Shown: positions 17-35,415 of the stretch, one piece after another
Numbering within the stretch: the first letter of the stretch is position 1
Layout of the letters: each line of letters begins with the position of its first letter
Source of the DNA: a virus
Virus record (IMG/VR): IMGVR_UViG_3300047168_000046
Span: 1 to 35,415 of that record
Strand: one strand, 5' to 3'
Length of the DNA: 35,415 bases
The notes under the pieces: generated by a model
Seen by the model: only the letters and a program-made list of their open reading frames with translations
What the model was told of the DNA's origin: nothing
Database searches by the model: none
Translations under genes and position numbers: made by a program

Positions 17-121
17 AAACCCAGCGCGCACCGCGCGCGCACCGCGCGCGCATCCTTTTTTGGACGTAAGTATAAACAAGCCATCACGTTCGAAACCGCG
101 CGCGCTTTTTACATCACTTTT
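17..121. repeat. Left copy of 105-bp terminal inverted repeat
   Basis: The reverse complement of 35277-35381. The outer 36 bp (17-52) match perfectly, and so do 25 bp at 89-113. A further 7 bp at 115-121 match after one mismatch. The middle 36 bp is only partly conserved but has the same length. The outer block contains GC alternations with 'acc' spaced every 11 bp, so it could also act as iterons or as a very strong hairpin if the molecule is circular. No gene overlaps it. Confidence 0.9.
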
Positions 122-2989: not shown

Positions 2990-4281
2990 GACGCGGATTT
3001 ACCTTGATCGAGCTATTAACCGTAATCGTGATCGTGCTCCTGCTGAGCGTGATCGCGCTACCGACTGTGATCCCGGCAATTTCGCACCGCCAGGTTGGCG
3101 AGTCGGCTCGGTTGCTGCAGGCAGCGCTGGCGGGAGCTCGCGACGCAGCCATTCGTGATAACGCCCTGGCCGGGATCAGGCTCTTGCCGGATCCCATTTA
3201 CAAAACCTACCTGGTCGATCCCCAGCTCGGCATCTACGACTTTCCGCGGCTGGCGAATGGGCAGATCGACCCGACGATTGCGCTGGCCGCCAACGCGTGG
3301 GTACCGATCGGCGCGCCGCCTGCTTACGACGACGGGCTAGCCTCGGTCTGCCCGTCGACCATGTACTCGCAATCGCTCACAGGGAACACAACGGCCCTTG
3401 TGCTCGAGGAATCGGTCGGCGCCTGGACCAACGCCGGCGGGGCCTGGGTGTGGCTGCCCAACTCGCCGACGAGCTGGTCGTGGAACGTGCGGGCCGGCGA
3501 TCGGCTGCGGATCAACAATACCGGCGCGTGGTACACCGTCGTGGGACCAAACGCCGCGGGTGTGACCGCCAACCCCCAGCGATTCGTCAACGCCGTGGCG
3601 CCGGGGCAGACGTCGCCGCTCTCGCGGACGATCCCATCACCCGATGGGAAGCAATCGGTGACCGTTAATCCGGAGTTCCTCCTACTCGTCAACGGGCGAG
3701 ACGACAACGGGAACGGCTGGGTCGACGAGGGGTGTGATGGTGTCGACAACAACGCGAACGGCATCATCGACGATCCCGGGCCGATCGATCCAACGGGCAA
3801 GACGCCGGGCGAGTCCGAGCCCGAAGCGTGGCTGGGGGCGATGGCGGCCGGCGCGGCCAACCTGCCCTACACGATCACCCGCCGGCCGGCGCCCACTACC
3901 AACTCACGCCAGACAACGCTGCCGAGCGAAGTGGTGGTTGACCTGACGACGTGGGCGACAACGCAAGAGCGATCGCGGCTGACCGTCGACCCGTACAACG
4001 GGACCGTCGACCTGGTCGTGATGGCGGATGGAAAGGTTGTCGGCACGACGATCTATTCGGCGCCCAGCTCGGTCGGAATGGCGGGAGCGTTCCATCACTT
4101 CTGGCTGGCCGAGCGAGCGGACGTGGTGGCGCCCGTCGGTACCACCGCGCCGAGCCTTCCCACTCCGAGTGGGACGAGCTGGCTCGTGACGGTGTTTGCT
4201 CGGACCGGCGCGGTCACGAACATCGACAACCCGGCGGAGTATCCAAATCCGTTTGCCTATGTACAGCAAGGGGGTCGGTGA
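2986..4281 (+). CDS. Type II/IV pseudopilin-like protein
   Basis: A 431-residue protein opening with a textbook class III prepilin signal. A short basic leader MRRG is followed by FTLIELL, with the conserved glutamate at position 5 of the mature protein, then a hydrophobic helix to about residue 30. Host prepilin peptidase (PilD/GspO) would cut after G4. Residues after 30 keep the pseudopilin-like helix (ISHRQVGESARLLQAAL). A large C-terminal domain follows, with two Asp/Asn-rich calcium-loop-like segments near residues 240-262 (DDNGNGWVDE and DGVDNNANGIIDD). The ATG at 2986 overlaps the preceding stop. Known pseudopilins belong to host secretion or pilus machines; finding one inside a phage operon is unusual. 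Incorporation into host pili or a secretion system, changing phage or surface interactions, is an inference. Confidence 0.82.
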   Translation: MRRGFTLIELLTVIVIVLLLSVIALPTVIPAISHRQVGESARLLQAALAGARDAAIRDNALAGIRLLPDPIYKTYLVDPQLGIYDFPRLANGQIDPTIALAANAWVPIGAPPAYDDGLASVCPSTMYSQSLTGNTTALVLEESVGAWTNAGGAWVWLPNSPTSWSWNVRAGDRLRINNTGAWYTVVGPNAAGVTANPQRFVNAVAPGQTSPLSRTIPSPDGKQSVTVNPEFLLLVNGRDDNGNGWVDEGCDGVDNNANGIIDDPGPIDPTGKTPGESEPEAWLGAMAAGAANLPYTITRRPAPTTNSRQTTLPSEVVVDLTTWATTQERSRLTVDPYNGTVDLVVMADGKVVGTTIYSAPSSVGMAGAFHHFWLAERADVVAPVGTTAPSLPTPSGTSWLVTVFARTGAVTNIDNPAEYPNPFAYVQQGGR

Positions 4282-4282
4282 G

Positions 4283-5326
4283 ATGGAGCATCGCCCCCAG
4301 CTCGACGGCCTGAGACTGGTCGCATTCCTGGCCGTCTACCTGTTTCATTTCGACCCTAACGCGTTTGGCTTCGGGGCCATCGGGGTAAAGTTGTTTTTCG
4401 CCTTGAGCGGCTTCCTGATCGTGAGGATCTTGATCCGCAACGAAGGGCCGTCGCTGGCGGACAACCTGCGGGTGTTTTACCTGCGCCGGACGTTGCGGAT
4501 CTTCCCGCTCTATTACGCGTACCTCTTCACGCTGCTCGCGGCCGGGCGGCTCGAGGGGGCGAAGTGGCAAATCCTTTACCTGACGAACATCTACGGATTC
4601 GCCAAGCAGCGCTGGCCTTACTTTCTTGGCCACTTCTGGACGTTGGCGGTCGAGGAGCAATTTTACGTTTGCTTCCCGGTCGCGCTCTACCTGACCCCGA
4701 AGCGGTGGCGACTGGCGATGATCGCGGCGGCTTTCGTAGGGGGCGAGCTGTGCAGATTCGGACTGGTCGCCTACACGACCCGCCGCTTCACGGGGCAGCT
4801 CCCGATGGTCGCCGGACTGACGCTCCTCATGGGGTGCGCCGCTGGGATCTGGGAGCTGGCTCGGCCGGCCGGGACGAAATGGGCGCCTGGGCCGGGCCTG
4901 TTCTGGGCTGGATGTGGAGTGCTGGCCTTCGTGTGGATTGGCCAGAAAGTGACCGGTCCGCGGCACATCTACTACGACCTGGGCGGCGTGGGGTGCACGC
5001 TGGTCGTACTGGGGGCGTGGACGTCGACCGGGGTGATCGCCTCGGCTCTATCGTGGGAGCCGGCGGTGTACCTGGGTCGCATCAGTTACGGGCTATACGT
5101 GCTGCATATCCCCGCGCTGGCGCTGACAACGGGAATCTGGGGTGTCACCTGGCGGGCGGTCATTGCAGGGATGGCGCTGACTATCATCGCCGCGATGGCC
5201 TCGTGGCACTTTTTCGAGTCGCCGATCTTGTCGCTGAAGTCGCGCTTCCCGTATGGCCCGACCAAACACGGAGAGGAGGAGCTTTCCCATGGATCCATCG
5301 CGATCGCGACAGCCGACGCTGGATGA
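4283..5326 (+). CDS. OafA/YrhL-type membrane acyltransferase
   Basis: A 347-residue multi-span membrane protein of the acyltransferase-3 family, which moves acetyl (or other acyl) groups to surface glycans. It opens with the family signature RPQLDGLRLVAFLAV and has the membrane-embedded histidine in YLFHFDP. FFALSGFLI, RRTLRIFPLYY and the FWTLAVEEQFY block are also present. About ten hydrophobic segments follow, ending with ISYGLYVLHIP. It starts two bases after the pseudopilin stop behind an AGGGGG. Known phage relatives (O-antigen acetylases such as Oac of Shigella phages) change the host surface during lysogeny to block superinfection. That role is inferred here from family and location. 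Confidence 0.9.
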   Translation: MEHRPQLDGLRLVAFLAVYLFHFDPNAFGFGAIGVKLFFALSGFLIVRILIRNEGPSLADNLRVFYLRRTLRIFPLYYAYLFTLLAAGRLEGAKWQILYLTNIYGFAKQRWPYFLGHFWTLAVEEQFYVCFPVALYLTPKRWRLAMIAAAFVGGELCRFGLVAYTTRRFTGQLPMVAGLTLLMGCAAGIWELARPAGTKWAPGPGLFWAGCGVLAFVWIGQKVTGPRHIYYDLGGVGCTLVVLGAWTSTGVIASALSWEPAVYLGRISYGLYVLHIPALALTTGIWGVTWRAVIAGMALTIIAAMASWHFFESPILSLKSRFPYGPTKHGEEELSHGSIAIATADAG

Positions 5327-9878: not shown

Positions 9879-9890
9879 GGGTGTTTTCGC

Positions 9891-9926
9891 TGAAGACGTC
9901 GGGCTGGAAAGCCCGACCTACGTTTT
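9891..9926 (-). repeat. Palindromic intergenic repeat, copy 1
   Basis: Hairpin GTCGGGCT-GGAA-AGCCCGAC (stem 9898-9905 with 9910-9917). Thirty bases (9891-9920) are identical to 14721-14750 and include the TAG stop of the upstream gene. Lies between the chaperone extension and the tape measure start. Confidence 0.85.
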
Positions 9927-14707: not shown

Positions 14708-14720
14708 TGGTTACGGGCAC

Positions 14721-14756
14721 TGAAGACGTCGGGCTGGAAAGCCCGACCTAAGTTTG
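14721..14756 (-). repeat. Palindromic intergenic repeat, copy 2
   Basis: Identical over 30 bp (14721-14750) to copy 1 at 9891-9920, again including the TAG stop of the upstream gene. Stem 14728-14735 with 14740-14747. It lies between the HslV-like gene and the gp10-like gene. Confidence 0.85.
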
Positions 14757-17776: not shown

Positions 17777-17830
17777 TGCTTTGCTCCTGGGTTGGCCTGC
17801 TCGCGGTGAACTCGATCCGCGCCGACAGGA

Positions 17831-17864
17831 TGAGGATGTCTGGCTGGAAAGTCCGACCTCCGAA
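17831..17864 (-). repeat. Palindromic intergenic repeat, diverged copy 3
   Basis: Matches copies 1 and 2 at 25 of 30 positions (17831-17860) and keeps the GGAA loop. One stem pair is lost and one becomes G-T. Lies between the capsid gene and the next gene. Confidence 0.75.
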
Positions 17865-17899
17865 ATGCGGGCGGCCAAACTGGCCGCCCGCTCTGACTA

Positions 17900-25610: not shown

Positions 25611-25928
25611 CTATCGTTCCCTGGCATGATGGCTGGAATGGCATGACTCGCAGTTTGATTCCAGATTGTCGATCGATAGCCGCAATTCAGGGAAGTCTCT
25701 GGCCGGCTTGATGTGGTGCACCGTGGTTGCTGGCCGTAAGACGTTGAGCTCTTGACATGGCTCACAGAGCGGCGTCGACGAGAGCTTCACCTGCCGAATC
25801 GACTTCCAGGCGCGGCTGTTATAGAACGCCTTCGCCACCTCATCGCGCCTGCCGCGATCGTAATCCCGTCGCATCTGAGCTAGCGTCGGAGAGTGAGGCG
25901 ACCTGAAAGAGGATACGCGTTGCGGCAT
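25611..25928 (-). CDS. HNH endonuclease
   Basis: 105 residues. Contains YDRGRRDEVAKAFYNSRAW, then LCEPC, VHHIKPARDFPEL and NLESNCESCHSSHH, which form the HNH core with its structural cysteines. Phage HNH proteins of this size assist terminase-dependent packaging, cutting near cos or pac. Here it is 1 kb upstream of the terminase genes on the same strand, as usual. Confidence 0.9.
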   Translation of the reverse strand: MPQRVSSFRSPHSPTLAQMRRDYDRGRRDEVAKAFYNSRAWKSIRQVKLSSTPLCEPCQELNVLRPATTVHHIKPARDFPELRLSIDNLESNCESCHSSHHARER

Positions 25929-26072
25929 CAAAGAAATCCCCGGAATTTGACCCGTGCAAACGAATCCATATTGTCAGCACCGGCGACGGGAGAAAACAAA
26001 CCTGTGCGTCGACTACACTCGCACCGGCCACGCCGCGGCCGAGGGATTCCGCGACGCAGCCGGCGGAGGGCT

Positions 26073-27375: not shown

Positions 27376-28296
27376 ATGACCAAGACGCCGACAACACCCA
27401 TCAGGCCTGCTACCTGGTCCAATGCGGTCGAGCTGTTCACAATCCATCTGACCGAGGCGGAGAAATCGCCAAACACCATCCGCGCCTACCAGTCCGACCT
27501 GATGCTTTTCCAGAGCTGGTACGTCTCGACTTATCAAGAAACGCCCGCGCTCGACCTGGTGAGCGCCGCCGAGCTACGCGCCTGGAAAGGATCAATGACC
27601 GAGGCAAAGCAGGCGCCCCAGACGATCAACCGACGCCTGGCCGCCATCCAGAGCCTCATCCGGTTCGGCGCGACCCAGGAATGGTGCCAGACGGTGGCCG
27701 GGCCCAGGACGGTGCGGCAAGAGACGCCACGGCCACGATGGCTATCGCGCCGCGAGCAACTCGCCCTGGTGCGCATCGTCGAACGATCGGCCGATCGCCG
27801 CGACATCGCGCTGATCAAGCTGATGCTACACGCCGGCCTTCGAATCGCCGAAGCCGAGTCAACGAGATGGAGTTCGCTCGAGCTGTCACCGCGCAAAGGC
27901 TCGATCACCATAATCGGCAAAGGCCGCAAGCAACGGACAATCCCACTGAACGTCGAGGCCCGCAACGCGCTGCTCGATCTCAGCGGCAACGTCAACACCG
28001 GCCAAACCCGCATCGGCCGTGACCTACCCGTCTTTCGCGGTCGAGAAGGCGGACTGACCGCCAACGCCCTCTGGCGGATCGTGACGAGCTACGGCGAAAA
28101 GGCCAAGCTCGAAGGCTTCAGCCCGCACGTGCTCCGACACACATTCTGCCGCCGCCTGGCCGAGGCCGGAGTACGCCTAGAAGAGATCGCCGCGCTCGCC
28201 GGCCACGAATCGATCGAGACAACCCGGCGCTACGTCGAGCCAGGTGAAGATGACCTGAGAGCCGCAGTCGAAAGACTCGCAGCGGGCGATGACTGA
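27376..28296 (+). CDS. XerC/D-like tyrosine recombinase
   Basis: 306 residues with a full catalytic set. R156 lies in HAGLRIAEA, K182 in GKGRKQR, H251 and R254 in PHVLRHTF, H277 in LAGHESIETTRRY, and Y286 is the nucleophile. The N-terminal SAM-like core-binding domain (about 15-105) contains SPNTIRAYQSDLMLF. It is closer to Xer than to phage integrases. ATG sits behind AAGGA. Possible roles are resolving genome multimers, using a host dif-like site, or a second integration route. No dif-like site was found with certainty. Confidence 0.92.
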   Translation: MTKTPTTPIRPATWSNAVELFTIHLTEAEKSPNTIRAYQSDLMLFQSWYVSTYQETPALDLVSAAELRAWKGSMTEAKQAPQTINRRLAAIQSLIRFGATQEWCQTVAGPRTVRQETPRPRWLSRREQLALVRIVERSADRRDIALIKLMLHAGLRIAEAESTRWSSLELSPRKGSITIIGKGRKQRTIPLNVEARNALLDLSGNVNTGQTRIGRDLPVFRGREGGLTANALWRIVTSYGEKAKLEGFSPHVLRHTFCRRLAEAGVRLEEIAALAGHESIETTRRYVEPGEDDLRAAVERLAAGDD

Positions 28297-32830: not shown

Positions 32831-33544
32831 ATGATCACCTCCGCATTTCCCGCTGCGCGCGGGGCACGCGCTCAGCGTCCGCCCGCTCTCGCGCGCCGCA
32901 ACGAGCTCGGCGCGGGCCTGACACCCGCCGAAGAGCGAGCACTGGCGGCCCGAATCAAAGCCGGAGACGAGCTCGCCCGCAACGAGCTGGTGATGGCCAA
33001 CGCGGCCCTGGCAAGCTACTTCGCCAAGCGATTCCGCTGGCGTTGGCATGACCTCACAATCGAAGATCTCCGCCAGGAGGCCATGCTCGGGCTAATCACG
33101 GCCGCCGAACGATTCGACCCCGAGAGCCACCACACGCGGTTCAGCACTTACGCCGCCTACTGGATCAACTGCCGGCTCCGCCGCGCAGCCATCACCACGG
33201 GCGAAAGCATCCGAATCCCCGACCACCATCACCAGAAGGGAACAGCCGCGGAACACCGATCCACAGTCCGACTCGCATCACATCGCATGGATCGAATGGC
33301 CACGCGAAAAGGCCAAACCGGCCCACCGACCACGGACGACCCCGCCGATACCCGAATGCGCCTGATCGACTCGCTCACGACCGACCAGCGCGCCCTACTG
33401 GACTGGTACGCCGACGACATCCAGCAATTGAAAACCCGCACCGGCGAACCGTTCCAGGTCCGCGAAAAGAAAAGGATCGCAGCCCGACGACTGCTCGCAA
33501 AGTTGCGAGCCAAACTCCAAGCCGAGGAAGGATCCCAATCATGA
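32831..33544 (+). CDS. Phage RNA polymerase sigma factor
   Basis: 237 residues with sigma-70 region 2 at about 45-120. It reads LVMANAALASYFAKRF, DLTIEDLRQEAMLGLITAAE-RFDP and TRFSTYAAYWINCRLRRA, matching promoter-melting and -10 recognition segments. The region-4-like C-terminal part (LTTDQRALLDWYADDIQQL onward) keeps the length but a poor helix-turn-helix. It would redirect host RNA polymerase, probably to late phage promoters. The stop overlaps the replication gene (ATGA). ATG lies behind AAGGA. Confidence 0.88.
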   Translation: MITSAFPAARGARAQRPPALARRNELGAGLTPAEERALAARIKAGDELARNELVMANAALASYFAKRFRWRWHDLTIEDLRQEAMLGLITAAERFDPESHHTRFSTYAAYWINCRLRRAAITTGESIRIPDHHHQKGTAAEHRSTVRLASHRMDRMATRKGQTGPPTTDDPADTRMRLIDSLTTDQRALLDWYADDIQQLKTRTGEPFQVREKKRIAARRLLAKLRAKLQAEEGSQS

Positions 33545-35289
33545 GCTATGGCGAATTGATCGAGCGAAACCCCGCGACCAGAATGACGTCCGCCTTCCAG
33601 GCCGCCGACGAGCTCGCGCCGCCCCACCATCTCGAGGCCGAAAAGAGCTGCATCGGCGCCATGCTCTACGACAACGCGGTCATCGACGACGTGCTCGAGA
33701 TCCTCCGCGCCGAGGACTTCTACCGCGATGCCCATCAAGTCATCTTTCGCCGGATCGAGTACCTCCACAAAAAGGGCACGCCCGTCGATAACGTCACCCT
33801 GGGCGATGACCTGCGCGTTCTCGGTCTCTGGGACGCAGTCGGCGGCATGGACTACCTGCACGAGATCATCATGTCCACGCCCCACGCGGCCAACGCGCGG
33901 TATCACGCCAACATCGTCAAGGAAAAGGCGAAGGCGCGACTCTCGATCGAGCAGCTCAAAGATCTGCTCAGGCGAGCCCACACGCAGCAAGAAATCCCCG
34001 ACGATATCCTGGAAGCGCAGTCCAGGATGATCGAAAGCATGCGATCGGACCGGGAAGAGCACGACGAGCTCGCCATCAACCCCCTGCCCACCAAAATGGA
34101 AGCGCCTGCCTTCCGCGGGCTGCTCGGCGACCTGGTGCACCGAATCGCACCCGAGACCGAGGCGTCACCCGAGGGAATCCTGGGCCAGCTCCTCCTAACA
34201 TTCGGCAACGTCGCCGGCCGCCGGCCGCACTGGGTCGTGAATGGGCGAAGGCACCACGCGAACCTGAATCTATGTTTGACCGGCCCCACTGGCGCCGGCC
34301 GCAAGGGGACCGCCTGGGACTGCACGCGTTGGCTTTTCAGCCAGTGCGACGAGCAATGGGCCAGGACGCCAATCCTATCCGGCATCGCGTCCGGTGAGGG
34401 CCTCATCCAGAAGGCGAGGGACTCCCGCGGACCATTGCTCATCGTAGAGTCTGAGTTTGGCCGGCTGCTCACCAGCTCGGGCCGTGACAATAACACGATC
34501 TCGCATGTATTGCGCGAGGCGTTCGACGGGGGCGCCCTGTCATTGCCGACCCGCAAAGACTCGCTCTACGTCGAGGACGCGCACATCTCGGTGATCGGGC
34601 ACATCACCTACACCGAGCTGAGGTCGAAAATCACGCAGTGCGACATCGACAACGGACTGGTCAATAGATTCATGTGGCTGCATGTCTACCGCGCGAGATC
34701 GCTCCCAGAAGGTGGCGATTTCGGCAGCCTCAAGCAGGTACTCGCGCCCCTGATCCAAGACCTGTCCTTCGCGGTCGATTTCGCCAAGCACGACAATGGC
34801 CATGACGTGCCTTACATGCGCGACGACGAGGCCAAGAAGTTCTGGCGACCGGTCTACGAAGAGCTCACCGAGCCCATCCAGGGAAGCTACGGAAGCGCCG
34901 TCGAAAGACGCGCTCCCATCGTCACCCGGATCGCCATGATCTACGCCATGGTAGACCGGGCGTTTTACATCGGAAAGAACCACATCGAATCGGCCCTGGC
35001 CTTCTGGCGCTACTGCGACCAGACAGCCGCGCACATCTTCGGCGCGCCCAAGCGAGATAAGCGCCTGGCAAAGCTCATGGAGCTGCTGGACGCCGCCGAG
35101 GACGGACTCCGCCGGACCGACATCAACCAGAAACTGGGCAACGGCCGCATGACGCCGGCCGAGCTCGACGCCCTCATCGACGCCGCCTACGCGTCGGGGA
35201 AATACCTGTACAAGGAGGTGAAGACCGGCGGTGCCAAGCGAAGGCTACTAGTGCACAAGAAGTACAGTAATGATGAAAAAGTGCTGTAA
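33541..35289 (+). CDS. Replication protein: DnaB N-terminal domain joined to a DUF3987-type ATPase
   Basis: 582 residues. Residues about 26-165 are a DnaB-helicase N-terminal domain (PPHHLEAEKSCIGAMLYDNA, VTLGDDLRVLG, then MDYLHEIIMSTPHAANARYH). A DUF3987-like ATPase follows: ASPEGILGQLLLTFGNVAGR, Walker A GPTGAGRKGT (248-257), Walker B LLIVESEFGRLL, sensor HISVIGHITYTEL and NGLVNRFMW. Canonical DnaB has a RecA domain here instead. The fusion may load or replace the host helicase at the phage origin. It is the last gene before the right terminal repeat, which overlaps its final codons. Confidence 0.85.
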   Translation: MSYGELIERNPATRMTSAFQAADELAPPHHLEAEKSCIGAMLYDNAVIDDVLEILRAEDFYRDAHQVIFRRIEYLHKKGTPVDNVTLGDDLRVLGLWDAVGGMDYLHEIIMSTPHAANARYHANIVKEKAKARLSIEQLKDLLRRAHTQQEIPDDILEAQSRMIESMRSDREEHDELAINPLPTKMEAPAFRGLLGDLVHRIAPETEASPEGILGQLLLTFGNVAGRRPHWVVNGRRHHANLNLCLTGPTGAGRKGTAWDCTRWLFSQCDEQWARTPILSGIASGEGLIQKARDSRGPLLIVESEFGRLLTSSGRDNNTISHVLREAFDGGALSLPTRKDSLYVEDAHISVIGHITYTELRSKITQCDIDNGLVNRFMWLHVYRARSLPEGGDFGSLKQVLAPLIQDLSFAVDFAKHDNGHDVPYMRDDEAKKFWRPVYEELTEPIQGSYGSAVERRAPIVTRIAMIYAMVDRAFYIGKNHIESALAFWRYCDQTAAHIFGAPKRDKRLAKLMELLDAAEDGLRRTDINQKLGNGRMTPAELDALIDAAYASGKYLYKEVKTGGAKRRLLVHKKYSNDEKVL

Positions 35290-35381
35290 AAAGCGCGCGC
35301 GGTTTCGAACCCGTGACGCTGACTCGACTTGCAAAAAAAAAGAGGTGCGCGCGCGGTGCGCGCGCGGTGCGCGCTGGGTTT
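35277..35381. repeat. Right copy of 105-bp terminal inverted repeat
   Basis: Inverted partner of 17-121. It starts inside the last codons of the replication gene that ends at 35289 and runs to within 34 bp of the window end. Perfect blocks lie at 35285-35309 and 35346-35381. The run of A at 35333-35341 mirrors the T run of the left copy. Confidence 0.9.
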
Positions 35382-35415
35382 ATCAACCTATGTACGTGCG
35401 CGCATGGATCGCCTC

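Follow-up and report, generated by a model that had tools for sequence, protein, structure and literature searches.

A DnaB-type N-terminal domain joined to a DUF3987 motor of predicted MCM-like fold in a tailed phage, beside a candidate replication origin

Introduction

What can a replication protein do when the N-terminal domain of the helicase DnaB is retained and the motor behind it belongs to another family? This question is raised by a 582-aa protein encoded in the window, the whole 35,415-nt stretch of DNA analysed here, which comprises the complete IMG/VR record IMGVR_UViG_3300047168_000046. A preliminary description of this DNA proposed that a DnaB-N domain is fused to a DUF3987-like ATPase which replaces the RecA part of the helicase, that the product could dock on primase through DnaB-N and act as a loader or an initiator, and that a terminal palindrome next to the gene is the best candidate for an origin. 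Here, the domain anatomy and predicted fold of the protein are described together with its relatives and the adjoining repeat, and the possible roles of the fusion are weighed against each other.

The phage record

Genes for terminase, portal, major head and tape-measure proteins are present in the record, along with two tyrosine-integrase-like genes on the plus strand (1109-2032 and 27376-28293), a gene content that indicates a tailed phage of temperate appearance. An O-acetyltransferase or O-antigen acetylase-like gene (4196-5323, plus strand) possibly alters the host surface, and a gene for an HNH endonuclease lies upstream of the terminase genes on the minus strand (25611-25931). A 36-nt repeat, CTGAAGACGTCGGGCTGGAAAGCCCGACCTACGTTT, occurs at 9890-9925, 14720-14755 and 17830-17865 (97% and 75% copies) and contains a short inverted repeat; its core, considered as a clue to the host, has no exact match in the loci of the relatives or in IMG/VR. 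No tRNA or Rfam family was detected in the window. The start codon of the fusion gene overlaps the stop codon of the sigma-70-like gene upstream (ATGA), and another virus record with the fusion (L148) also encodes a sigma-70 region 2 protein, at a position that is not adjacent to the fusion gene. The features of the locus are compiled in Table 1.

Table 1. Coordinates of the fusion gene, the parts of its product and the neighbouring features in the window.
Feature	Position	Strand	Basis
Sigma-70-like gene (regions 1.2 and 2, no clear region 4)	32831..33544	+	PF04542, E = 1.3e-9
Fusion gene: DnaB-N, predicted MCM-like AAA+ (DUF3987) and winged helix, 582 aa	33541..35289	+	ORF list and translation; Pfam; AlphaFold2 model of the whole protein (54 related sequences, pLDDT 89.9); 11 further fusions
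DnaB N-terminal domain with helical hairpin, residues 25-174	33613..34062	+	PF00772; VIA
Predicted MCM-like AAA+ motor, residues ~183-500 (DUF3987, RKGT clade)	34087..35040	+	PF13148; domain-only AlphaFold2 model; structure matches
Variant Walker A, GPTGAGRKGT, residues 248-257	34282..34311	+	Invariant residues in 54 sequences
C-terminal winged helix, residues ~507-572, candidate origin-binding domain	35059..35256	+	Secondary structure of models
Inverted repeat, left half: outer arm 35277-35310, inner arm 35337-35381	35277..35381		Repeat search
Inverted repeat, right half: inner arm 17-61, outer arm 88-121	17..121		Repeat search
Last 9 nt, GATCGCCTC, identical to positions 1-9, likely circular junction	35407..35415		End comparison

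Domain organization of the fusion protein

The fusion of the two domains was borne out by Pfam matches within one ORF: residues 27-128 correspond to the DnaB N-terminal domain (PF00772, E = 1.8e-31) and residues 283-501 to DUF3987 (PF13148, E = 1.5e-13), the latter at 51.1 bits and thus above the curated cut-off of 27. The replacement of the RecA part was likewise confirmed, as the DUF3987 motor is present while DnaB_C (PF03796), the RecA-type motor of DnaB, has no Pfam match in the fusion protein or anywhere else in the record, and profile and structure searches found no RecA-type helicase domain after residue 200. In agreement, NCBIfam models of DnaB match the N-terminal part only, and sequence matches in the PDB end at residue ~176 and all represent DnaB N-terminal regions. 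In the whole-protein model, residues 25-174 match DnaB N-terminal domains (NTDs) with Z scores of 20-22 over 139-151 residues (VIA), and the sequence is 42% identical to the E. coli DnaB NTD over 114 residues. The domain is complete with its helical hairpin and is intact in the predicted structure. We infer from the presence of DnaB-N alone that this part would form a primase-docking collar able to bind DnaG.

The fold of the motor was addressed with two models and two programs, which both indicate MCM proteins. An AlphaFold2 model restricted to the motor and the C-terminal winged helix reached a pLDDT of 92.9 and a pTM of 0.87, and when the motor alone was searched, the best 50 rows were all MCM proteins in both Foldseek and VIA. 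Among the best 50 rows, the VIA Z scores range from 16.8 to 18.6, mostly over 245-277 residues at 3.4-4.0 Å, and the best match extends over 273 residues at 3.7 Å (Z = 18.6). Residues 192-500 of the whole-protein model match MCM motors with Z scores of up to 19.1. Some of the MCM alignments reach over the C-terminal winged helix, but at an overall rmsd of 9-12 Å. At the sequence level, a profile of the motor retrieved MCM proteins as its best seven matches in the PDB, with weak E values of 0.0075-0.025, and hhalign aligned it to archaeal MCM with a probability of 2.8% (P = 0.016 for one comparison) in the lid region with its candidate sensor-2 arginine. As this match is local and weak, the MCM assignment rests on structure prediction, according to which the ATPase domain of the fusion is an MCM-like AAA+ domain. 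The residues G248, K255 and G256 of the Walker A motif are invariant in 54 sequences, and so are N375, R376 and R456, candidates for an arginine finger and sensor 2, the last of which is placed by hhalign on the TARQ arginine of MCM at a weak score. Because Walker A (RKGT) and Walker B (VESEF) both deviate from the usual motifs, the motor is a putative ATPase.

These features also delimit what the protein is. It is not a DnaB, as the RecA motor is absent, and neither is it an MCM in the strict sense: the MCM family PF00493 is not among its Pfam matches at E ≤ 1, and the N-terminal OB/Zn domain of MCM is missing, with the motor following directly after the DnaB NTD. The product is probably a DUF3987-family protein that works like an MCM and carries a DnaB collar.

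Recurrence of the fusion

A scan of IMG/VR with the single protein recovered no close relatives, and in a first survey of 29 loci the fusion appeared to be unique to the window. This was overturned by wider profile scans of IMG/VR and 84,980 genomes, which yielded about 165 proteins that share this DUF3987 motor; 12 of them, the window included, carry DnaB-N in frame. The other fusions are distributed over six IMG/VR viruses (L116, L117, L119, L125, L135 and L148), four Planctomycetota loci (L056, L059, L064 and L067) and one locus of Panacagrimonas (L084). Their occurrence at 11 other loci means that the fusion is not an assembly chimera of the window contig alone and identifies it as real but rare; among 392 genomes of the phylum of L059, about 20 encode the motor and only the motor of L059 itself bears DnaB-N. 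In the motor tree, on which the window motor sits on a long and poorly placed branch, the fusion label must change five times, with well-supported branches forcing no fewer than three of these changes, and repeated swapping of DnaB-N is therefore likely from the sequences, yet an origin in a single clade is not rejected (AU p = 0.089). In two of the Planctomycetota loci, a tRNA-Leu (CAG) begins about 90 nt past the stop codon of the fusion gene (2338-2420 in L064 and 7626-7708 in L067), which suggests the end of an integrated element. A literature search that covered few subscription journals found no paper describing DnaB-N fused to a DUF3987 or MCM-like motor.

The inverted repeat downstream of the fusion gene

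The palindrome noted earlier beside the gene is real: positions 17-121 and 35277-35381 are inverted copies with 80% identity over 105 nt (blastn, E = 4e-22), organized into two tiers, an outer one whose arms measure 34 nt (97%) and an inner one whose arms measure 45 nt (93%), and the inner arm contains iterons at 11-nt spacing (GGTGCGCGC at 35344, 35355 and 35366). The record ends with the same 9 nt with which it begins, and for this reason both halves most likely belong to one inverted repeat, interrupted by the contig ends, in a genome that is circular or circularly permuted. Joining the record at this overlap produces one inverted repeat that starts at the stop of the fusion gene and has a loop of ~41 nt; its score is 45, whereas shuffled sequences reached 11.5 at most.

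Repeats of different sequence are found in the same place in four of the viral relatives, L116 (arms of 67 and 48 nt), L117, L119 and L135, and they support the earlier proposal of the palindrome as an origin candidate. More generally, a strong inverted repeat lies within 400 nt past the stop codon in 24 of 161 relatives and in 1 of 136 control stretches taken 1.5 kb further on (Fisher p = 2.9e-6; paired comparison, Wilcoxon p = 2e-11), and part of this excess may reflect intergenic position, since the controls lie mostly in genes. None of the four Planctomycetota fusions is followed by a strong repeat. Repeat strength does not distinguish fusions from the other relatives (p = 0.41), so that the repeat is tied to the motor rather than to DnaB-N. 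By eye, three of the seven fusion-bearing virus contigs (window, L119 and L125) end within 360 nt of the gene stop, as expected of assemblies that break in such a repeat. Sites downstream of their own genes are known to be bound by the SCCmec helicase Cch2 and, likewise, by the SaPI Rep helicases (PMC7581432).

That the repeat is instead a transcription terminator, or the true terminal repeat of a linear genome, would be compatible with the preferred explanation of the protein and appears rather improbable. It follows immediately on the stop codon, lies where the contig ends and has T-runs adjoining its GC-rich arms, all of which would suit such a role, whereas arms of 34-45 nt, partly composed of iterons and arranged in two tiers around the loop, do not. 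Moreover, the like-placed repeats of L116, L117 and L135 are internal to their contigs, the shared 9 nt suggest a circle, and no protein-primed polymerase is present among the genes scanned. From its sequence and placement, the inverted repeat is a good candidate for the origin.

Replication modules in the N-terminal slot

The relatives indicate which modules can occupy the position of the collar. Among 65 N-termini of at least 140 aa without DnaB-N, Pfam detected Prim-Pol in 20, PriCT_1 in 13 and the NrS-1 polymerase HBD in 5, with counts that may overlap, and a few contain Toprim, RepB_primase or AEP (TOTE-type primases). DUF3987 was previously predicted to be a helicase because, when fused to primases, it takes the place of an MCM, RepA or DnaB helicase domain (Kazlauskas et al., PMC5862659). 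In the PICMI satellites, replication requires the gene prim, which DUF3987/DUF5906 models recognise (PMC10803314). The best indication that the collar serves priming is its position: a primase-docking module stands where relatives often have a primase of their own. The remaining replication genes are less telling: neither DnaB_C nor DNAG_N was found in any of the seven fusion-bearing virus records, but DnaB_C also has no match in 17 of 22 non-fused records (it is present in 5), which leaves its absence only partly informative and of little weight, and DNAG_N is missing from all 20 non-fused relatives as well, so that its absence is uninformative and was dropped as evidence.

Proposed mechanism and alternative roles

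Building on the computed results for the domain anatomy, the MCM-like fold, the recurring fusion, the slot primases and the downstream repeats, we infer hexamer formation, helicase activity, its polarity, origin binding and recruitment of DnaG. The fusion protein would, with reasonable probability, be an origin-binding, self-loading MCM-like initiator and replicative helicase, equipped with a DnaB collar for the recruitment of host DnaG. Its winged helix and MCM-like AAA+ domain would recognise the iterons in the inverted repeat that immediately follows the gene, and the protein would assemble there as a hexamer that unwinds DNA without a separate loader. The N-terminal DnaB-type collar would then bring the host DnaG primase to the moving ring; where the motor of the relatives often carries its own primase, the fusion version would carry a docking site for that of the host.

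Of the two roles first suggested for the protein, that of an initiator, in the form of a self-loading helicase, fits better than that of a loader of host DnaB, which is the main alternative. As a loader or recruiter, the protein would use DnaB-N to pair with host DnaB through the NTDs of the latter, while its AAA+ part would open or deliver the host ring at the phage origin. Within DnaB itself the NTDs form pairs, AAA+ proteins are represented among the helicase loaders of bacteria and phages by several examples, and host DnaB could be the working helicase since the phage is devoid of DnaB_C. We nevertheless consider this role unlikely, as an AAA+ part that resembles the replicative motor type of MCM and the slot primases of the relatives fit a helicase at the fork, and the protein has no Pfam similarity at E ≤ 1 to DnaC, DnaI, lambda P, DciA or other loader families, which are divergent. 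The self-loading helicase-initiator is favoured because of the MCM-like motor, the slot primases and the lack of a DnaB motor in the fusion-bearing virus records. A takeover of the host, in which DnaB-N forms mixed collars with host DnaB or sequesters DnaG and thereby stops host replication, would exploit the closeness of the domain to cellular DnaB seen in the E. coli comparison, but is highly improbable for a protein that retains a motor, a winged helix and a downstream repeat, none of which a decoy would need, and that is present in bacterial MAG contigs too. Least probable of all is that DnaB-N is a functionless passenger inherited from one accidental fusion: the AU test accommodates a single origin, but the domain is intact in the predicted structure, its distribution demands at least three changes on well-supported branches, and it is present both in viruses and in contigs from two bacterial phyla.

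If the helicase-initiator role is correct, a DnaB collar on an MCM-like motor mixes two replication systems that are usually thought to be separate, and the bacterial primase-docking part works on an unrelated MCM-like motor, which makes helicase-primase coupling testable as a separable module. DUF3987, still labelled as unknown in Pfam, gains a concrete fold and a likely role, and a candidate origin is supplied with its likely initiator encoded beside it. More tentatively, the collar may bring DnaG to a motor that probably moves 3'-5' on the leading strand; the primase would thus sit on a ring of polarity opposite to DnaB, as in eukaryotic forks, and primases and the DnaG-docking collar could be interchangeable plug-ins of one mobile-element motor.

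Comparison with known systems

DnaB (PF00772 and PF03796) shares with the fusion protein the N-terminal collar with its hairpin, which is the primase-docking part in DnaB, and differs in its RecA-type motor, in place of which the fusion has an MCM-like AAA+ motor and a winged helix. With the MCM proteins (PF00493; MCM2-7 and archaeal MCM), it has in common a predicted fold of the AAA+ type, which extends over ~270 residues with Z up to 18.6, as well as a C-terminal winged helix, and it is set apart by the lack of a PF00493 match, by DnaB-N in the place of the MCM N-terminal domain and by atypical Walker motifs. The Rep proteins of SaPI and the SCCmec proteins Cch and Cch2 (PMC7581432) embody the same idea of a single-protein initiator-helicase with an origin just downstream of its gene, and a repeat that would correspond to such an origin is present here from 35277 on and in relatives; their ATPases belong to DUF927 or Primase_Cterm/D5, for which the fusion protein has no Pfam match, and they lack DnaB-N. 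The PrimPol-DUF3987 primase-helicases of mobile elements (PrimQH and All3500; PMC5862659) combine the same DUF3987 motor with an N-terminal replication module, which is a primase in their case and a primase-docking collar in the fusion protein.
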